64,000 nt of DNA, from assembly GCA_016218495.1 (NCBI GenBank), contig JACRDU010000155.1, forward strand, positions 1 to 64,000. The letters run 5' to 3'. A program made the position numbers and the translations under genes. The notes under the pieces are model-generated. The model had not been told where the DNA came from. It saw nothing but the letters and a program-made list of their open reading frames with translations, and did no database searches. This DNA comes from Elusimicrobiota bacterium (lineage in GTDB: Bacteria > Elusimicrobiota > Elusimicrobia > UBA1565). Shown here piece by piece: positions 29,609 to 47,854 of the stretch (the first letter of the stretch is position 1; each line of letters begins with the position of its first letter).

Positions 29609-29670
29609 GGTGTCAGACATTCGGAAATTACGAAAGCGCGAGCTTTCGAAATTTCCGAATGTCTGACACC
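29609..29670. repeat. 62-bp near-perfect palindrome (REP-like)
   Basis: Arms 29609-29637 and 29642-29670 are 29 bp each with one mismatch (29630/29649) and a 4-nt loop. The outer arm is GGTGTCAGACATTCGG. It begins 4 bp after the stop of module protein B1 and is AT-richer than its surroundings. The GTGTCAGAC-type outer arm resembles extragenic palindromes mobilised by Y1/RAYT transposases; no such transposase is in the window. It could also end transcription. Confidence 0.7.
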
Positions 29671-29759: not shown

Positions 29760-32450
29760 GTGATACTAAGGAAGGGCGTTGCGGCCCTGCTGGCCTTGCT
29801 GCTGGCGGCGCCGCCGGCCTCTGCCCAGCGCATCGCCGCCCCCATCCTCGCCCCCGTCTTGCCGGGCGCCTCCATAGTCCTTCCGGCGCCGGTGCTGACC
29901 ACTCCATTGGGCGCGGCTGCGACCCTGCCGACGCTGTCCGCCCCGTCCCTGTCCGCACCCCGAGGGGTCGTCGGACCGACGGCCGTCGCCGCTCCCGCCG
30001 CCGTGGCCGCCCCGGCGCTAGCGCGGGCCGCAGCCCTGCCCGCGCGGGCCGGGCTACAGGCGCTGGGCGACGGCCTGGCCCGCGCCCAGGCCTCCGGTCG
30101 CTCCGCGGCGCCCGTCCTGGCTCAGGTCTTCGACGCCTCGGCCCCGCGCTCGGGCTCCCCGGCCTCGGCCGTCGTCGCCGCCTCCATCGGCGGCCGCACC
30201 CTGTCCGGCCTCCCGCGCTCGTTGGCCGCGCTCAAGGAGCTGCGCCTGGGCTCCTACAACGTCCTCAACCTCTTCGAAAAGGTCGGCAAGCACGTGCCGG
30301 ACCCCGACCATCCCGGGCAAATGAAGCAGGTCTCCGGCCGCACGGCAAAGGAGGAATGGCAGCTGCGCGAACAGGCCCGCGCCATCCTGGAGAGCGGACT
30401 CGACGTCGTCGCCCTGCAGGAGGTCGAGAACATCGCGGCGCTCGACGACTTCAACGCGCGCTACCTGGGCGGGGCCTACAAGACCCTGCTCAGCGAGGGC
30501 AACGACCCGCGCGGCATCGACGTGGCCTTCCTGGTTAAGCGCGACTTGCCGCTGACGTTGGAGCAGCGCAGCCACAAGGACGAGGAGTGGGAGGACCCCA
30601 CCCAGGGCGGCGCGCGCGCCAAGCTCTTCTCGCGCGACCTGACGGCGCTGGTCGTCCGGGCCGAGGGCTCGGCGCAGCCGCTCTTCATCCTGCTTGGCAC
30701 GCACATGAAGTCCAAGCGCGACCGCCCCGGCGACCCGGAGTCGGCCGTCCAGCGCCGCGCCCAGGCCCGCCGCACCGCCGAGGTCGTGCAGCGCTACCGG
30801 GCCGAGTTCGGCGCCGACGCCCGCCTGATGCTGGCCGGGGACTTCAACGGCGACCTCAACGCCGAGGACACCTTCGCCCCGCTCTGGGAGGCCGGGCTCA
30901 CCAACAGCCTGGACCTGGGCGAGCGCCCGGTGCCGCTCGAAGAGCGCGTCACCCACACCTACCACCCTAAGGATGGGCCGCGCCACGCCGCCCAGATGGA
31001 CGGCATTTTGGTCTCGGACAGCCTGAAGGGCCTGGTCGCCGGCGCTGAGGTCTACCGCTACAAGGACGAGGGCGGGACGCCCAAGCCCATTCCCCAGACC
31101 TACGATGAGCGCAGCCGCAACCCTTCCGACCATTTCCCGCTGGTGATGACGCTGCGGGTCGCCCCGCTGCTCAAGGCCGCGCCGGCCCCGCCCGCTCCGG
31201 CCGTCCCGGCCCCGGCCGGCGAGCGCCGCCTGGCCGCGCTGGGCCTGGCATGGAGCTTCCTCGCCATCGCGTCGATGTACATCGTCCTGCCGGTGCGCAG
31301 CGCCTTCCTGCTCACCCAGTTCGGGCCCTCCGTCATGCCCTGGGTCTTCATGGCCAGCGCCGCCTTCACCGGCGCCGCGGCCTGGGCCTACGCGCGCTTC
31401 GCCGGCCTGCCGCGCGCCAAGCTCATCGGCGGCACCTTGGCCGTGCTGGCCGCCAGCCTGACCGGCTGGTGGGCCCTGGCCCCGCTGGCGATGGCCTCGG
31501 GCCCGCTGTCCTTCGCCTTCTCGATGTGGGCCGATGCCTTCTCCATCATGTCGGTGACCCTGTTCTGGACCTACGCGAACGACCGCTTCAAAGGCGAGGC
31601 CGCGAAGCGCTGGTTCGGCCCTTTCGCCGCGGCCGGAGCGCTGGGCGGGATGGCCGGTTCGGCCGCCACCAAGGCGCTCGTGACCACCCTCGGCACGACG
31701 CCGCTGCTCCTCATCGGCGCGGCGGTCTTCGCCGCCATCGGCGGCGTCTTCGCCCTGATGGAGCGCCAGACGCTGCCGGAGGCCTCCGAGCCGGCCCCCG
31801 CCCTCCAGGCGCCGGCCAAGCCGGACTCCAGCCCGTGGGCCGTGGCCAAGGCCGTGCTGGCCTCGCCGTTCCTGCTCGCGCTGACCGCCGTGGTCTTCTT
31901 CGAGCGCCTGGTCCCGGACTTCTCGTACTACCTCTTCTCCGTCAGCGCCCAGGCCGCCTATCCGACCCGTGAGGCGATGGCGGCCTTCCTGGCCTCCTTC
32001 GGCTTCTGGCAGAGCCTGGCCTCCCTCGTCACCAGCGCGGCCCTGACCGGCTGGGTTCTCAAGAAGCTGGGCGTAGGCAAGACCCTGCTCGGCGCGCCGC
32101 TGGCCAACCTGCTGGGCTTCGTCGGCTTCGCCCTGTCGCCGACCTTGGGCGCTGCGGTGGCTGCCAACGGCGTGGAGGGCTGGCAGCGATACGGCTGGTT
32201 CAAGGCCGCCAAGGAGACCACTTACTCGGCGGCCGACAAGGGCCTGCTCTACCAGGTGAAGGCCTACGTCGAGATGTTCGTCTACCGCTTCGCGCGCGGC
32301 GTGGCCGGCCTCATCCTGCTGCTGCTGACCGGCAGCTCGTTTATGGGCTGGAGCCCCTCCGCCGTAGCCTGGGCGGCCGTCCCGCTGGGTCTGGCCTGGG
32401 TCTACGCCGCCTGGAAACTCGGCGCCGAGTACAAGAAGCGCGCCGGTTAG
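29760..32450 (+). CDS. Exported EEP phosphodiesterase fused to NTT-like nucleotide transporter domain
   Basis: 896 residues, GTG start. Signal peptide ending PASA (about 23), an Ala/Pro/Val linker to about 135 closing with LAQVFDASA, then an endonuclease/exonuclease/phosphatase domain (about 160-465). That domain has SYNVLNLF, a metal-binding Glu in ALQEVEN, the catalytic-centre motif GDFNGDLN near 360 and SDHFPLV near 457, so its catalytic set looks complete. Residues 485-890 form about 11-12 membrane helices with NDRFKGEAAKRWFGPFAAAG, typical of the ATP/ADP-translocase (NTT/Npt1) branch of MFS. The signal peptide puts the EEP domain outside the cytoplasm. I infer cleavage of an extracellular nucleic acid or phosphoester coupled to uptake. 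It is monocistronic. Confidence 0.75.
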   Translation: MILRKGVAALLALLLAAPPASAQRIAAPILAPVLPGASIVLPAPVLTTPLGAAATLPTLSAPSLSAPRGVVGPTAVAAPAAVAAPALARAAALPARAGLQALGDGLARAQASGRSAAPVLAQVFDASAPRSGSPASAVVAASIGGRTLSGLPRSLAALKELRLGSYNVLNLFEKVGKHVPDPDHPGQMKQVSGRTAKEEWQLREQARAILESGLDVVALQEVENIAALDDFNARYLGGAYKTLLSEGNDPRGIDVAFLVKRDLPLTLEQRSHKDEEWEDPTQGGARAKLFSRDLTALVVRAEGSAQPLFILLGTHMKSKRDRPGDPESAVQRRAQARRTAEVVQRYRAEFGADARLMLAGDFNGDLNAEDTFAPLWEAGLTNSLDLGERPVPLEERVTHTYHPKDGPRHAAQMDGILVSDSLKGLVAGAEVYRYKDEGGTPKPIPQTYDERSRNPSDHFPLVMTLRVAPLLKAAPAPPAPAVPAPAGERRLAALGLAWSFLAIASMYIVLPVRSAFLLTQFGPSVMPWVFMASAAFTGAAAWAYARFAGLPRAKLIGGTLAVLAASLTGWWALAPLAMASGPLSFAFSMWADAFSIMSVTLFWTYANDRFKGEAAKRWFGPFAAAGALGGMAGSAATKALVTTLGTTPLLLIGAAVFAAIGGVFALMERQTLPEASEPAPALQAPAKPDSSPWAVAKAVLASPFLLALTAVVFFERLVPDFSYYLFSVSAQAAYPTREAMAAFLASFGFWQSLASLVTSAALTGWVLKKLGVGKTLLGAPLANLLGFVGFALSPTLGAAVAANGVEGWQRYGWFKAAKETTYSAADKGLLYQVKAYVEMFVYRFARGVAGLILLLLTGSSFMGWSPSAVAWAAVPLGLAWVYAAWKLGAEYKKRAG

Positions 32451-36436: not shown

Positions 36437-39400
36437 TCAGCGGCCGAAGAGGCCGTAGTCCGTCATGACGCGCAGCACCTCGGCCACGCTCCAGGCCTGA
36501 GAGCGGGTGCCGCCGCGGTTCTGCGCGCGCGCCGCGCGGGCCATCGCCGGGCCGAGGCCGGCCCGGTCCTCGAGGGAGAACTCCCTGAACAGCGCCTCGG
36601 AGGACCCGCCGTCGAAGACTTCGGGCAGAGAGCCCTCCGTGGAGGCGGCCAGGAACTCGGCCAGCGGGGTCAGCACGCCGCGCAGCTCGGCGCTGATTCG
36701 CTCGGAGGACCAGCCCTGGGCGCGGCGCACCTTGACCAGGGCATCGAGGTAGGGGCCCATCAGCCAGGGCCAGACCGTGCCCTGGTGGTAGGCCTGGTCC
36801 TTCTCCAGCGGGGGCTTCGCGGTATCGTAACGCCCCTGGTAGCGCGGGTCGCGGTAGGAGAGGGTGCGCATCCCGTAGGGCGTCAGCAGGTCGCGCGTGG
36901 CGGCCAGCACGACGGCCGCCTGCCGCTCGGGGCTCAGGAGGTCGAGGCCGTGGCTGACGGCCACGAGCATGTTCGGGCGCACCGCTTCGCCGTGCGGGTC
37001 GCCCTCGACCACGTCGCGCAGCGCTCCGCCCGTACCGCCCCAGGCCCGCCGGTTCTCCTCGTTGGCGAACCAGAACTTCTTGTTGAAGGACTGTTTGACC
37101 CGCTCGGCCCGGGCGTCGGCCTCGGAGGCGGCCGCGGCGTCCCCGGCCTCGCGCTCCAGCTCGGCGAGGTAGCGCAGATTCGCGTACCAGAGGGCGTTGA
37201 TCTCCACCGCCTTGCCGTGGCGCGGGGTCACCGGGCGGTCGCGGCCTTCGGGGTCGGCGTCCATCCAGGTGGACTGGGCGGGGCTGACGATGAGCCCATC
37301 GGAGTCCATGTAGATGCGGTTATAGCGGCCGTAGCGCTGGTAGCCGGTGCCCTCGGCGTAGGCGCGCATCACCTTGCGCAGCACCGGCAGCATCTCGGCG
37401 GCGAAGGCCGGGTCGCCGGCCTTCTTGACCGCCTGGACGAACCACATCGAGCCGTCCACGGTGTTGTATTCCGCCGCCGCCCCGCCTCCCGGCAGGCGGT
37501 TCGGGATGAGGCCGTCAGCCTCGTGGCGCGCGAAGCCGCGGATGTTCTCGCGCGCCTCGCCGCGGCGCCCGGTGGAGAGCAGGAGGCCGGGCAGGGAGAT
37601 GAAGGTGTCGCGGCCCCACTCCTCGAGGAACCAGTCCAGGCTGGCCGCCCAGATCTGGACCCCGCCGCCGGCGTGCTTCACGAACGAATCCCCCGCCTTG
37701 AGGAAGGCGCCCTTCAGCGCGGCCCCCGCGCTCCAGACCTTGCCCGCCAGCACGGCCATCCAGGCCCCCAGTTGGGCGCGCACGTCCCAGCGCGCACGGC
37801 TGCCGTAGTCCGGGTCGGAGGGCAGCGGGATGCGCCAGCGCCAATGCGAGGTGCCGCCCGCCATCTCCTTGACCGGGAACGGGTCGCCCCATTCGTCGCC
37901 CAAGGTGTAGCCGGTGAAGCGCGCGTTGCGCCCCGAACCGGGCTTGCGGCTCTCGGCCAGGAAGCGCCCGATGAAGCCGTCGGAGCGCGGGTCGTCGTGG
38001 CTGGAGACCTTCTTCCAGTCCCCGTACACCGTCACGAAACCGAAGCGCTCGGCCGCCTCGGCCTTCCCCTCGAAGGCCTCGGCCAGCGGGAAGGCGCCGC
38101 GCTCTGAGAACACCTGCGCCAGGGCCTTCACATAGTCGTCGCCCGGCTCGTCGCCCGACACCATCTGCCCGTTGCCGAAGTCGTAGGCGAAGTGCAGCGC
38201 GTCCACGCGCGCCCCGTCGAAGCCCAGGTCCAGCCAGTGGCGATAGGGCGCCAGCATCGCCGCGTAGCCCTCGGATTTCGCGCGCCCCCAGTTCCACAGG
38301 CCCAGGTCCTTCCAGTCCTCGTTTATCCACTGGTTCTTGATGCCGGGGTTTCGGGTGCGCAGGTCGGTGAAGACCTCGGGGCGCTTCCAGGCATCCACCG
38401 AGTCCTTGCCGCGGAACATCGGTATGTCGAAGAGCACGCGGCCGCCGACGTCGTGGACGGTCGCCAGGGCCTCCTGGAGCTGGCCATAGGCCAGCCACTG
38501 CGCGAACTCGTGCGTCTCCACCGTCTCGCTGAAATCGGCCCGCCCCCGTGCCCCGGCCAGGTCAGCCGGCGTCCACTGCAGCACCGGCTTGCCCACGGCC
38601 TTCGACAGCGCCATGAACTCGGCGTACTCGCCCAGCCAAGCCGCGCTCTCCGCCTTGAAGTCCTCGAAGGCCCGGCCGCGCTGGGAAGTCCGGTCGAAGG
38701 CGCGGTAGGCCGCGCGGGCGACCTCCGCCTCCCGCGCGCGCAAGGCCTCGTAGTCCACGGCCTGCTTCTGGGACAGGGTCTTGGCCTCGAGCTTGGCGGC
38801 CAGCGCCGGGTCGGCCTTCACCTCCGGCACGACCGCCCAGTCCAGGTGGTCCTCGTTGACGGCGAAGAGGCTGACGGGGGCGTAGGGGCTCTCCCCGCGT
38901 ACGGCGAAGTGCGGCAGCAGATGGACGACCTTAGCGCCCTGCTTGGCCAGCACGTCGCGGTAGTAGGCGGCGAAATCGGTGAACTTGCCCACCCCGGGGT
39001 CGCCTTTCTCGCGCCGCAGCGAGTAGAGCGGCACGGTGACGCCGGCGTGGGCGGCGGCCGGGTCGCGCCACCAGGCGGAGCGGGCCAGGCCCGTGCGCGA
39101 CAGCCCGCCGGAGCGGCCGTCCACGACGCCGGAGCGCCCGGAGACCTGGCGCCCGCCGTCGAACAGGGCTCTGAGCGCCGGGGCCGGCGCTTTGGCTACG
39201 GCCGGCGCGGCCTCCTTGAGCGAGGCCAGCGGCGTCTCGGCCCGCCCCTGCGCCGGCGCCGACGGGCCGGCGACGGCCTTGGGGGCGGCGACGGCTGAGG
39301 CGGCCGCGGCCCGCGCCGAAGCGGCGGCGGGCACGGCGACGGCAGGGAGGGCGGAAACCGCGACGGTCGGGGCGGCCAGCGCCGCGCCGGGCGAAAGGGT

Positions 39401-39574
39401 CAGCGTCGGCTTGGGCCGGGAGACCGGCGCCAAGCCTCCGACGGAGACAGGCGCGACGGGGACGGTGACGGGGGCGGAGACGACCTGCGCGAGGACGGGA
39501 GAGACGGGCTGGAGGAGCAGGCACAGCGACAGGAGGGCCGCGCCGATTCGGCCCAACAGGATTTCTCGCCTCAC
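36437..39574 (-). CDS. Exported two-domain glycogen debranching enzyme: GH77-like + GH133
   Basis: 1045 residues, GTG start. Signal peptide ending VLA (about 29), Ala/Pro/Val linker to about 133 closing with LRALFDG at 134-140. An alpha-glucanotransferase-like barrel follows (about 178-600): it opens GVTVPLYSLRREKGDPGVGKFTDF as in GH77 and keeps a possible triad in GARVDAL near 455, LAEAFEG and SSHDD. The C-terminal part (about 630-1045) is an amylo-1,6-glucosidase domain with EEWGRDTFISLPGLLL, AEYNTVDGSMWF and KDQAYHQGTVWPWL. One chain thus unites transferase and glucosidase, the logic of the eukaryotic debrancher, but it appears exported. Confidence 0.8.
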   Translation of the reverse strand: MRREILLGRIGAALLSLCLLLQPVSPVLAQVVSAPVTVPVAPVSVGGLAPVSRPKPTLTLSPGAALAAPTVAVSALPAVAVPAAASARAAAASAVAAPKAVAGPSAPAQGRAETPLASLKEAAPAVAKAPAPALRALFDGGRQVSGRSGVVDGRSGGLSRTGLARSAWWRDPAAAHAGVTVPLYSLRREKGDPGVGKFTDFAAYYRDVLAKQGAKVVHLLPHFAVRGESPYAPVSLFAVNEDHLDWAVVPEVKADPALAAKLEAKTLSQKQAVDYEALRAREAEVARAAYRAFDRTSQRGRAFEDFKAESAAWLGEYAEFMALSKAVGKPVLQWTPADLAGARGRADFSETVETHEFAQWLAYGQLQEALATVHDVGGRVLFDIPMFRGKDSVDAWKRPEVFTDLRTRNPGIKNQWINEDWKDLGLWNWGRAKSEGYAAMLAPYRHWLDLGFDGARVDALHFAYDFGNGQMVSGDEPGDDYVKALAQVFSERGAFPLAEAFEGKAEAAERFGFVTVYGDWKKVSSHDDPRSDGFIGRFLAESRKPGSGRNARFTGYTLGDEWGDPFPVKEMAGGTSHWRWRIPLPSDPDYGSRARWDVRAQLGAWMAVLAGKVWSAGAALKGAFLKAGDSFVKHAGGGVQIWAASLDWFLEEWGRDTFISLPGLLLSTGRRGEARENIRGFARHEADGLIPNRLPGGGAAAEYNTVDGSMWFVQAVKKAGDPAFAAEMLPVLRKVMRAYAEGTGYQRYGRYNRIYMDSDGLIVSPAQSTWMDADPEGRDRPVTPRHGKAVEINALWYANLRYLAELEREAGDAAAASEADARAERVKQSFNKKFWFANEENRRAWGGTGGALRDVVEGDPHGEAVRPNMLVAVSHGLDLLSPERQAAVVLAATRDLLTPYGMRTLSYRDPRYQGRYDTAKPPLEKDQAYHQGTVWPWLMGPYLDALVKVRRAQGWSSERISAELRGVLTPLAEFLAASTEGSLPEVFDGGSSEALFREFSLEDRAGLGPAMARAARAQNRGGTRSQAWSVAEVLRVMTDYGLFGR

Positions 39575-43460: not shown

Positions 43461-45839
43461 CTATAGCTCCAGGAGGACATGGTCGTAGATCCGCGGGATC
43501 TTCGTCCCCGCGCCCTCCAGCGTGTAAAAGCTCCACTCTTCCTTCTTGGCCGCCACCGCGCGCAGCTCCCCGAGGTAGCCGTCCCAGGTCGACACGAAGG
43601 CGCGCGTGCCGGAAAAATCCGCCACCGAGGCGAAATAGGAGGCCGAGAAGGTGAACTCCACCATGTTCTTGTCCTTGTCGGCGCGGGCGGCGATGTCCCC
43701 GACCAACGGCTTGCCGTAGGATTCCGGCCCCGAATCGGCCGCCCCGAAGGAGCGCATGTCCCAGCCGTAGAGCAGGAAGCCGGCGTTGAACTCGAAGTCG
43801 GAGCGGGCGTAGCCGAGCTTCGGGAAGAAGCGCTTGCCCGGGACGCCCGGGAAATCGAAGTAGACCGAGAAATAGACGTGGTCGAAGCCATGCGGCGGAT
43901 TCCATTCGTCCGTCACATCGGTCATCTTGAAGCGCAGCTTCAGGTCCCGTCCCGAGGTCAGCGCGTCCACGCGTTCCATCGAGAGCTGGCCGCGATAGCT
44001 GGGGTCAGCCGGAGGGCGCACGGTGCCGTCGAGGCCGCCCTTCTGGGCCTGCGGGACCTTGGAACGCACCAGCAGCTTGTAAGGGTTCTTCACCGTCAGC
44101 GTCACCGGCGCCGACAGCGCCAGCCCGGCCTTGCTCTTGGCCAGCAGGGTCAGGTCGTGGCGGCCGTTGCCCAGGCGCGTCGTGTCGAGCTCCACGCAGC
44201 CCGCGGAAGGGTCGGACAGCGGCACGCGCCGCCCATAGTCGCCGTTGTCGAGGAGGACGAGCTCGCAGGCCCGGTCCTCGAGCCTGTAGTCCAGCGGGAC
44301 GGTGCCCTTGACCAGGCGCCTGGCCGGGGCGACCAAGGCCAGGCCGTGCGCGTCCGCCGGGACAAAGGCGCCCTCCAGCACGAGGAATTCGCCCGGCTCG
44401 AGCAGGAAGACCCCGGGGACGTCCTTGCGCCCGTGGGAGGACAGCGCCACGGACAGGCCCTCCCCCCCCAGGTCGCAGGCCACGGGGTTGGGCGCGGTGT
44501 TGAAGACGGACACCAGGCGGACGTCCTTGTGCGTGCTCGACCAGGCCAGGAGGCCGGGGCCGTGGCTGGTGCGCTCGACGGCCAGCTTGCCGCGGGTCAG
44601 CGCGGGGTGGGCCTTGCGGAAAACGACCAGGGAGCGGATGAAGACGGCCAGCGGGCTCTCCAGGTCGAAGGCTTCGTCCCGGAACATGTCCTCGCGGGCG
44701 CGGGTCAGGGCGGCCTCGGTGCCGTAGTAGACGCAGGGCAGGCCGGGCAGGGTGAAGAGGGCGGCCAGCGACTGCTTTACCGTGGGCAGGTCGGCCCGAG
44801 CGCACATGCGCTCGATGTCGTGGTTGTCGAGGAAGTTGACCCACAGCGGCCGGTTCGCGCGCGGGGCCTTGAGGACCTTGCGCAGGCGTTCGGTGGGCGC
44901 CTTGCGGAAGAAGACCTGGGTCAGCGCCTCGTTGAGCGGCAGGTCCACCGCCCCGTCGAGGCGCGGCCGGCCCGGCCCCTTAATGTAGTCGTTGATGGCC
45001 TTCGTGTCGTATGACCAGACCTCGCCGAAGACGAAGAAGTCGCGCTTGCCCTTCTTGGCGGCGTGCGGCTTCACTCCGTCGGCGTCGTACAGGAAGCGCT
45101 CGTAGAACTCCTCGGGGGTGTAGTAGACCGTGTCGACCCGGAATCCGTCGATGCCGGCCTCGTCCATCCAGAACTTGTAGACCTCCTTGAAGCGCTGCAC
45201 GGCCAGGGGGCTCTTCAAATTGATGTCGTCGAGGTCCCCCATCGACCAGGTCAGGGTCTGCTCGCGCGACTTGAAGTCGGAGATGTTCGGCGTGAAGTTG
45301 TAGACGGCCGCGCGCTTGTGCTCGGGGTTGTTGGGGTCGTTGAGCGAGAACACCGGGTCCTTGGGCGCCATCAGCGCCCCGTCGGCCAGCTTCCAGTTGA
45401 GCTCCGGGCGGGCCGGGTCGAAGCCCTGGCCCTCCACGGTGAAGAAGTTGCCCGTGTGGTTGACCACGATGTCCTGGATGACCTTGAGCCCCAGAGCGTG
45501 GGCCCGCGCGACGAACGTCTTGTAGTCCGCCAGCGTGCCGAAGTGGGGGTCCACAGCCGTGAAGTCGTAGGCCCAGTAGCCGTGGAAGCCCCGGGTCTTG
45601 ATGTAGGGATTGACCCACTGGTTGTGCACCGGCGGGGTGATCCACACCGCGTCGTAGCCCATCCCCTTTATGAAAGGGAGGCGTTCGGTCAGGCCCTTGA
45701 GGTCCCCGCCGTGGAAGGCGTCGTCATCGTCCGGGTCGTACTCGCCCTTGCCGAAGTCGTCGTTGGAGCGGTCGCCGTTGGCGAAGCGGTCGATGAGGAC
45801 CAGATAGACGACCTTGTCGCGCCAAGCGTCGGGCTTCAC
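43461..45839 (-). CDS. GH13 alpha-amylase with C-terminal glucodextranase-type domain
   Basis: 792 residues, GTG start overlapping the upstream amylase stop (GTGA). GH13 barrel at about 1-440: FHGGDLKGL, DIVVNHTGN, catalytic Asp in IDGFRVD near 233, Glu in VFGEVWSYD and Asp in FLDNHD. A beta-sandwich region follows. The last 200 residues (about 590-792) match the glucodextranase C-terminal domain (RFKMTDVTDEWNPPHGFDHVYFSVYFD, AFVSTWDGYLG). No signal peptide is visible at this start, unlike the neighbouring amylase; either it is cytoplasmic or it leaves by another route. Confidence 0.85.
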   Translation of the reverse strand: MKPDAWRDKVVYLVLIDRFANGDRSNDDFGKGEYDPDDDDAFHGGDLKGLTERLPFIKGMGYDAVWITPPVHNQWVNPYIKTRGFHGYWAYDFTAVDPHFGTLADYKTFVARAHALGLKVIQDIVVNHTGNFFTVEGQGFDPARPELNWKLADGALMAPKDPVFSLNDPNNPEHKRAAVYNFTPNISDFKSREQTLTWSMGDLDDINLKSPLAVQRFKEVYKFWMDEAGIDGFRVDTVYYTPEEFYERFLYDADGVKPHAAKKGKRDFFVFGEVWSYDTKAINDYIKGPGRPRLDGAVDLPLNEALTQVFFRKAPTERLRKVLKAPRANRPLWVNFLDNHDIERMCARADLPTVKQSLAALFTLPGLPCVYYGTEAALTRAREDMFRDEAFDLESPLAVFIRSLVVFRKAHPALTRGKLAVERTSHGPGLLAWSSTHKDVRLVSVFNTAPNPVACDLGGEGLSVALSSHGRKDVPGVFLLEPGEFLVLEGAFVPADAHGLALVAPARRLVKGTVPLDYRLEDRACELVLLDNGDYGRRVPLSDPSAGCVELDTTRLGNGRHDLTLLAKSKAGLALSAPVTLTVKNPYKLLVRSKVPQAQKGGLDGTVRPPADPSYRGQLSMERVDALTSGRDLKLRFKMTDVTDEWNPPHGFDHVYFSVYFDFPGVPGKRFFPKLGYARSDFEFNAGFLLYGWDMRSFGAADSGPESYGKPLVGDIAARADKDKNMVEFTFSASYFASVADFSGTRAFVSTWDGYLGELRAVAAKKEEWSFYTLEGAGTKIPRIYDHVLLEL

Positions 45840-47854
45840 TTACGGACCAGCACGCGTACGCCGCGGGCGGGGACCCGCACCGTGACCTTGGAGCCGCCCT
45901 CGGCGCCGGGATGGGTGGCGACGCCGTAGCCGGCGTCGAGCGCGTCGGACAGCGCGGTGCCGGCCGGGGTCAGGCCGTTGTCGACGAACATCTCCGCCTC
46001 GCGGGCCTCGTCGGCCGTGTTCATCACGACGACGACCTCTTGCCCCTGGTAGATGCGGCTGAAGGCGTAGATGCCGGAGTTGTATGGGTCGGACCAGCGT
46101 ACATGCTGCTCTCCGCGGCGCAGCGCCGGCAGGTCCCGGCGCACCTTCATCAACTGCTGGAGCAGCTTGAAGCTGGCCGCGCCGGTATCGAACTTGTCGC
46201 CCTTGGAGCTCTCGGTCTTGTACTGCCCCTCGGCGAACATGTCCTCGCGGTTCTGAGGGTCGGCCGGGCGGTCTCCGCCCTCGGGGGTCAGGCGTCCTTC
46301 GAGCTGGCGGAAGGCCTGCTCGGCGCCGTAGTAGACTAGGGGGATGCCGGTGGAGAAGAGCAGGAAGGCGAAGGCGGCCTTGAGCACGCCGTCGGACTCG
46401 CCGTCGCGCAGGAAACGGTAGGTGTCGTGGTTGTCGATGAAGCGGATGATGCGCCCGAGGGCCGCGCCGAGCGCGTCGCGGGCCCGCACGAAGCTCTCCT
46501 CGAGCTGGCGGGTCGGGGCCTTGCCGTGCAGCGCGAACTGCTGGCGCCGGAACTCCGGGTAGTTGTAGCCGGAGTCCGTGCCCAGCCCCAGGTCGCCGAC
46601 GATGTCGGAGTCGACCCCGGTGGAGTTCTCGCCCAGGACCAGGAAGTTCTTCTTGCCCAGGCCCCCCGCGTACTCCTTGACCTCCCGGGAGAAGCGCCGC
46701 ACGAAGTCGGGGTCCATGTGGCGGATGGCGTCGAGCCGCATCCCGTCCACGTCGGTCTCCTTCAGCCACCACTGCGTGACCTTGATGAGCTTCGAGCGCG
46801 TCGCGTCGCGCTCGGTGTCCCAGTGCCGGTAGTTGGGCGGGAAATCGCCGTGCGTGGCTTGGTCGTGGTTGTTCCAATCGTCGATGACGCCGCGCCGGGT
46901 GAAGTCCTCGCCGGTCATGTCCTCGGGGCCGAGCAGCTCGGTCCACTCCCCGATCTCCTTGCGGCCCGCGCCCTGGTACTTGGAGCCGTCCTTGTACTCG
47001 AAGACCGGTCCGGTGTGGTTGGCCACCACGTCCAGGATGACCTTGATGCCGCGCGCGTGGGCCTCGCGAACCATCTCCTTGTAGTCATCCATCGTGCCCA
47101 GATGCGGGTCCACGGCCAGGAGCTGGGTCGGCGCGTAGCCGTGGTAGGCCTCCGGGATGCCCATCGTCACCGGCGAGAGGATGATGGCGCTGACGCCCAG
47201 GGTCTTGAGGTAGTCGAGCCGCGCGGTCACGCCCTTGATGTCGCCGCCGTGGCGCGAAACCCCGCTCTTGGGGTCGCCCAGAGGGATGGCGCGCTTGGAG
47301 CGCGAGAAGCGGTCGGTCATCACCGAGTAGACGACCTCGTCGCGCCAGTCCTCGGGAGAGGCGAAGTACTTGCGCCCGGACTCCGGGGTCAGGCTCAGCT
47401 CGGCGACGGTGCGCGGGGTGCCGGCCGGCGGCTCCAGCCGGCGCATGGCCTCCGGGGTCGGGGTGGTCCGGGCCTGGACGGCGGAGAGCTGCTGGGTGGG
47501 GCCGAGGTCGGGGACGGCCTTGGCCTTCCCCTCGGCCGCCGCGCGCCCCTGCTCCTCCTTCGCCGCGACGGCCTTGGCCGGGGTCGGAGCGGCCAGAGCG
47601 GCCTGGGCCGCCTGCGCCTGCGCCCGCGCCCGCGGCTGGACGGCGGGCGTCGGCAAGGCGAGGCTGGGAGCGCCGAGGCTGGGCGCCGCCAGGGACGGGG
47701 CGGACAAGGTCGGCCCCAGCGACGGCTTGACCAGGCCCGCGCCGACAGGGCCGACGGCGGGGGCGGCCTCGACGACGGGCGCGACGGTCTTGACCTGGGC
47801 CGCCGAGGGCGACGCCAGCGCGAGAGAGAGGAGGATGGATAGAAGCCGCGTCAT
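45836..47854 (-). CDS. Exported GH13 alpha-amylase with Ala/Pro linker
   Basis: 672 residues from the ATG at 47854, overlapping the upstream stop (ATGA); the longer open frame lies in that gene. Signal peptide MTRLLSILLSLALASPSAA, an Ala/Pro/Leu linker with APSL repeats to about 140, then a GH13 barrel and C-terminal beta domain. Conserved regions present: DVVANHTG, DGMRLDAIRH with the nucleophile Asp near 373, VLGENS with the acid/base Glu, and FIDNHD. Should hydrolyse extracytoplasmic alpha-1,4-glucan. Second gene of the operon. Confidence 0.85.
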   Translation of the reverse strand: MTRLLSILLSLALASPSAAQVKTVAPVVEAAPAVGPVGAGLVKPSLGPTLSAPSLAAPSLGAPSLALPTPAVQPRARAQAQAAQAALAAPTPAKAVAAKEEQGRAAAEGKAKAVPDLGPTQQLSAVQARTTPTPEAMRRLEPPAGTPRTVAELSLTPESGRKYFASPEDWRDEVVYSVMTDRFSRSKRAIPLGDPKSGVSRHGGDIKGVTARLDYLKTLGVSAIILSPVTMGIPEAYHGYAPTQLLAVDPHLGTMDDYKEMVREAHARGIKVILDVVANHTGPVFEYKDGSKYQGAGRKEIGEWTELLGPEDMTGEDFTRRGVIDDWNNHDQATHGDFPPNYRHWDTERDATRSKLIKVTQWWLKETDVDGMRLDAIRHMDPDFVRRFSREVKEYAGGLGKKNFLVLGENSTGVDSDIVGDLGLGTDSGYNYPEFRRQQFALHGKAPTRQLEESFVRARDALGAALGRIIRFIDNHDTYRFLRDGESDGVLKAAFAFLLFSTGIPLVYYGAEQAFRQLEGRLTPEGGDRPADPQNREDMFAEGQYKTESSKGDKFDTGAASFKLLQQLMKVRRDLPALRRGEQHVRWSDPYNSGIYAFSRIYQGQEVVVVMNTADEAREAEMFVDNGLTPAGTALSDALDAGYGVATHPGAEGGSKVTVRVPARGVRVLVRK

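Follow-up and report, generated by a model that had tools for sequence, protein, structure and literature searches.

Does a single gene of an Elusimicrobiota bacterium join a phosphodiesterase of the EEP type to a membrane carrier related to the nucleotide transporters (NTTs), and, if it does, what might such a protein do for the cell? Intracellular parasites and plastids are the main known sources of NTT carriers, most of whose bacterial relatives have no known cargo. The gene that raises the question lies in the middle of a contig from a 4.15 Mb assembly, and was analyzed within a 64,000-nt stretch of that contig, referred to below as the window. The original prediction was of an EEP hydrolase facing the outside and fused to an NTT-like domain, which would take up the nucleotides or other phosphoesters released.

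One reading frame with both domains in three species

Positions 29760-32450 on the forward strand of the window form a single stop-free frame encoding 896 aa from a predicted GTG start. From the N- to the C-terminus, the protein consists of a signal-peptide-like segment (residues 1-22, 29760-29825), an Ala/Pro-rich linker (residues 23-157, 29826-30230), an EEP phosphodiesterase domain (residues 158-468, 30231-31163), a short Ala/Pro-rich linker without a transmembrane (TM) helix (residues 469-485, 31164-31214) and an NTT-like membrane domain of 12 helices (residues 486-895, 31215-32444), all on the forward strand. The fusion was found in all three species of the genus that were examined, the window's included. 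Full-length homologues in genomes G001 and G002 share 67% identity with the window protein over residues 6-895 and 66% over residues 3-888, respectively. A scan of GTDB contigs returned the G002 fusion again, as SCTT01000227, the other eight of its nine relatives being Elusimicrobia or Elusimicrobiota records.

Between the three species, amino acid identity is 70-75% in the EEP domain and 60-71% in the TM domain, as against 37-47% in the linkers. Per-region dN/dS was below 1 for the EEP and for the membrane domain, which is weak evidence at this high GC content. Since the same fusion occurs mid-contig and without stops in the assemblies of three species, and since its halves are conserved while the linkers have diverged, the chance that it merely reflects a faulty assembly, a frameshift or two proteins taken for one is negligible, and an artefact is excluded for practical purposes. 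The two domains thus do stand in one chain, and the frameshift or assembly join named beforehand as one finding that would refute the original prediction was not found.

A scan for promoters and terminators yielded no promoter-like site, and terminators occurred near chance level. A long hairpin (GGTGTCAGACATTCGGAAATT and its complement) at 29609-29670 precedes the gene by about 90 bp; its half-site has 29 matches in the genome with up to 2 mismatches, mostly as inverted pairs, in the manner of a REP-like palindromic repeat. The gene neighborhood is uninformative, the window copy being near sugar ABC genes and a debranching enzyme, the G001 copy among unrelated genes, and the G002 copy again near a debranching enzyme.

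The two domains and their relatives

The EEP domain was matched by the Pfam profiles PF03372 (residues 205-374, 31.4 bits, cut-off 24.5) and PF19580 (residues 164-375, 30.3 bits, cut-off 27). The catalytic pattern sought (Asn, Glu, His, Asp-x-Asn, Asp, Asp-His) is complete, as N167, E221, H315, D361, N363, D414, D457 and H458, and these residues occupy columns invariant over 11 relatives, so that the predicted complete active site is borne out at the level of sequence. The closest named sequence family is ExeM/NucH (NF033681), a group of extracellular nucleases, which aligns across residues 159-433 with 47 bits, below its curated cut-off of 300. An AlphaFold model built from the window protein and 25 relatives (mean pLDDT 77, pTM 0.55, with the mutual placement of the domains not fixed) showed an ordered EEP sandwich, to which TDP2, CNOT6L, nocturnin and 3mpr were nearest when compared with the PDB by Foldseek. 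In the same model the long linker was of low confidence except for helices at residues 87-125, which end in an FDA motif, and twelve long TM helices spanned residues 486-895 with pLDDT mostly above 85.

For the membrane domain, PF03219 (TLC) matched residues 595-788 with 23.9 bits in the whole protein and 27.3 bits for the domain alone (threshold 21), and MFS_1 gave a sub-threshold match in the second half. All 18 members of the membrane family matched PF03219 at E≤0.01, and 17 of them matched TIGR00769, the NTP/NDP exchange transporter model. When a profile of the 18 members was compared with all PDB chains (E up to 1), only Chlamydia NTT1 (2.3e-15) and AtNTT1 (2.8e-12) were found. By Foldseek, the top five PDB matches were NTT structures (E 5e-11 to 1e-9), and the best other MFS structure followed at 5e-7. 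An ordinary non-NTT MFS protein is thereby ruled out as the best match, and the predicted NTT-like fold came through both the structure prediction and the fold search. Since the PDB profile matches were NTTs only and the window member scored 30.9 bits against a TIGR00769 cut-off of 387.2, the membrane half is a distant relative of the NTTs that lies outside the NTP/NDP exchangers as filed.

Charged residues invariant in the carrier family are R552, D592, D608, E668, E715, R716, D720, R810, K815, K818, E819, K834, E838, R843 and R846. The four essential charged residues of AtNTT1 are K155, E245, E385 and K527; a chain offset of 84 yields Glu at 245, Glu at 385 and Lys at 527. Like the NTT/TLC family (PF03219; AtNTT1 and Chlamydia NTT1), the window carrier has the 12-helix fold, an acid at the E245 position (the invariant D592) and a base at the K527 position (the invariant R846). 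It differs in having Tyr at the E385 position (Y723), with the invariant D720 about one turn earlier, and F530 at the K155 position, which is Phe or Tyr in all members (placed by the PW/PF motif only), as well as in its N-terminal EEP domain and in a score far under the exchanger cut-off. The four-charge set of the NTP/NDP exchangers is therefore incomplete, and the cargo, judged from these residues, may be something other than ATP/ADP. The nucleotide cargo of the original prediction fared correspondingly worse than the fold, given the TIGR00769 score, the Phe/Tyr at the Lys155 position, and stand-alone copies of the carrier at the head of an arsenic resistance cluster in a sister genus (see below).

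In g10 and g8, sister genera within the order, separate genes at different loci encode the EEP and the carrier. A search of the phylum found an EEP of this type in 12 of 336 genomes, 11 of which, counting the three fusions, also have a close carrier; the three fusing species had no separate EEP gene in this search. In g10, a carrier is present in all seven genomes with an EEP, and none of the six carrier-less genomes has an EEP (hypergeometric p ∼0.03, computed by hand and ignoring relatedness). PF03219 relatives with scores above the cut-off are present in 29 of 57 related genomes.

Several variants of these genes were also observed. A paralogue in G001 (L046:9238-11031) has the N-terminal cassette of the fusions and the carrier but no EEP; it clusters with the G002 fusion within the fusion clade (support 99/98), and on this placement is probably a secondary loss of the EEP after duplication. 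In L063:8402-9765 (G044), a frameshift divides the EEP gene into two overlapping frames. Other NTT-like matches in frames of 743-1127 aa (G030:C75, G063:C13, G064:C1 and G003:C117) are possible further NTT fusions. In G024 and G052 (L055:6885-9722 and L052:5248-7293) the same EEP runs into a LOG-like Rossmann domain, which was above the cut-off for PF03641 and below it for the NCBIfam models TIGR00730/CtkRMPhLog. Since characterized LOG enzymes hydrolyze nucleoside 5′-monophosphates, this fusion points, weakly, to nucleotides. L055 has a further region with no assigned function, and the EEP of L049 has a long C-terminal extension with no LOG match.

Location of the EEP and candidate functions

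The reading we prefer, tentatively and at rather less than an even chance, is that of a one-chain phosphodiester scavenger for nucleotides or other phosphoesters. The precedent is GlpQ and GlpT, in which a periplasmic phosphodiesterase feeds an MFS organophosphate antiporter; these are two separate proteins, and GlpQ is not an EEP enzyme. The window protein would follow the same phosphodiesterase-to-carrier scheme in one chain, with other families. The EEP would cut phosphodiesters, nucleic acid or nucleotide derivatives being the likeliest, into phosphomonoesters. The phosphorylated product would then pass through the inner membrane into the cell by way of the NTT-like carrier, probably by antiport with phosphate or a smaller nucleotide. 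Of this scheme we infer the substrate and the transport direction and, least firmly, the extracytoplasmic position of the EEP.

Scavenging is supported by the retention of the fusion in three species with conserved domains and diverged linkers, by the invariant EEP catalytic columns and the nuclease-type families and folds nearest to this domain, by the NTT-first PDB matches with D592 and R846 at the E245 and K527 positions, by the co-occurrence of the separate genes in sister genera together with the lack of a separate EEP in the fusing genus, and, weakly, by the EEP-LOG fusion. It is weakened by the charge pattern of the carrier, by the missing Lys155 equivalent, the replacement of E385 by Y723 and the low TIGR00769 score, and by the arsenic-linked carriers, the uninformative context of the fusions, and the presence of PurH and carbamoyltransferase-family genes in the window's genome. 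Since the latter genes have been kept, nucleotide auxotrophy is not indicated, and obtaining phosphate, nitrogen or carbon is a likelier purpose of scavenging than meeting a nucleotide requirement.

Whether the EEP faces outward depends on two signals that oppose each other. The N-terminal segment (VILRKGVAALLALLLAAPPASA|QR) has an AxA-Q site and an ordinary n/h/c signal-peptide pattern, the same in homologues, as judged by eye and simple rules rather than a trained predictor; AlphaFold placed a short helix at residues 2-16. The charge pattern of the 12 helices is instead that of an N-in/C-in carrier, which puts the junction between EEP and carrier inside the cell: with the N-terminus in, 17-25 Lys/Arg are cytoplasmic and 2-7 outside in all 18 family members. 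No convincing additional TM helix was found between the signal peptide and TM1 using an approximate Hessa-type scale written for the purpose. Because there are 12 helices with N-in charges and no added helix, an exported EEP conflicts with a normally oriented carrier, and signal-peptide export and an N-in carrier cannot both hold in one ordinary chain. The same conflict arises in carriers that bear the N-terminal cassette and no EEP, while cassette-free carriers (such as G168 and L066) begin just ahead of TM1 in the usual N-in way. For the outside-facing EEP of the original prediction, then, the signal-peptide pattern stands and the membrane topology does not agree with it; on balance we consider an EEP outside the cytoplasm somewhat probable.

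The strongest rival follows from these observations. In it the EEP is cytoplasmic, the carrier is N-in, and the cassette does not function in export in this protein, so that cleavage would either trap incoming cargo or precede export. Cleavage on arrival would give one-way transport, a group translocation, of which we know of no case among NTT or other MFS carriers. The positive-inside pattern of all 18 members, the 12-helix model and the N-in start of the cassette-less carriers favor this alternative, which we nevertheless regard as rather unlikely, given the ordinary signal-peptide pattern with its AxA-Q site, the resemblance of EEP-only relatives to plain secreted proteins and the extracellular nature of the closest EEP sequence family, ExeM/NucH.

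The cassette itself was surveyed over about 397 kb. It consists of a signal-peptide-like helix and a stretch of 60-130 residues rich in Ala, Pro, Val and Ser, often with an FDG, FDA or FSG motif, and precedes unrelated domains at 29760-29990, 36437-39574 and 45836-47854 of the window and at L065:2758-4122, L065:9143-10708, L092:2526-6605, L057:5689-8328 and L051:1-2204. The second of the window sites is a GH77-like 4-alpha-glucanotransferase and amylo-1,6-glucosidase (debranching) protein with sugar ABC transporter genes nearby. Some cassette-bearing proteins (PLD, amylase, subtilase) are plausibly exported, and others belong to families that are usually cytoplasmic or ATP-dependent (an acyl ligase with acyltransferase, a class III cyclase and an RNase R-like protein); a plain export role is therefore open to question, and the second group is a further point for a cytoplasmic EEP. 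The proposal that a single-chain hydrolase-carrier couples phosphodiester cleavage directly to NTT-fold transport of the phosphorylated product is best called doubtful.

A different cargo is suggested by the separate carriers of g10. In eight genomes of this genus (L048, L050, L053, L056, L058, L062, L067 and L068) the stand-alone, cassette-bearing carrier gene lies immediately 5′ of arsenic genes, with gaps of mostly 20-60 bp and a 4-bp overlap in G048 (L050); it is followed by arsR and arsC and then by acr3, acr3-arsM (once) or an aquaporin gene. Profile searches of representative loci identified the regulator and reductase families as well as ArsP, ACR3 and ArsM; ACR3 and ArsM were above curated cut-offs, ArsP was found in one locus, and the reductase was below the arsC equivalog cut-offs. 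The carrier might accordingly move phosphate or arsenate oxyanions, or an organophosphate (organoarsenical), with the EEP supplying organic phosphate, for example as a bypass of arsenate-permeable phosphate uptake, and the transport of phosphate along with ADP is known for NTTs. However, the eight loci are orthologous and thus close to a single observation, arsenic genes are absent next to the carriers of G016, G048 (second copy), G015, G011, G168 and G023 and next to all three fusions, and no arsenic transporter family in NCBIfam, ArsJ-like MFS proteins included, was matched. We therefore consider an oxyanion or organoarsenical carrier improbable. An acr3 gene is present elsewhere in the window's genome.

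Much less probable still is an action of the EEP on membrane lipids, in the manner of sphingomyelinase or Cwh43, with the MFS domain flipping the lipid product. EEP domains do include lipid phosphodiesterases, Cwh43 provides a precedent for an EEP joined to a different membrane domain, and in g10 the genes that encode an EEP alone are divergently arranged with a PlsC plus acyl-ligase gene (110-160 bp in G025 and G048); yet the membrane half ranks NTTs first by profile and by fold, nuclease-type families are nearest to the EEP, and the LOG-like fusion suggests nucleotides.

Known systems and significance

Among characterized proteins, the ExeM/NucH family shares the EEP domain and lacks a transporter. 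Cwh43-type proteins, which are eukaryotic and act in lipid remodeling, likewise join an EEP to a multi-helix membrane domain, but theirs is at the C-terminus of an unrelated membrane domain, whereas the window EEP is N-terminal to an NTT-like one. A survey of NTTs described five multidomain architectures, none with an EEP and including NTT-HEAT, NTT-HEAT-cNBD, NTT-SAM MTase and 2OG-Fe(II) Oxy-NTT fusions of unknown function, and reported no NTT in Elusimicrobia (Major et al. 2017, PMC5381601). The window protein resembles these in joining an NTT module to a soluble domain and is alone in carrying an EEP hydrolase. A viral fold library gave named matches, mostly from large viruses, to the EEP or the MFS half and none to the fusion. 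No description of an EEP-NTT fusion was found in the open-access literature, a scope that makes the absence a weak one, in agreement with the earlier statement that no system of this form had been described.

Taken together, the fusion, its separate-gene versions, the EEP-LOG fusion and the link between carrier and arsenic genes provide testable leads to the cargo of NTT-like carriers in free-living bacteria, which in the case of the fusion may perhaps serve the scavenging of nucleotides or phosphate.
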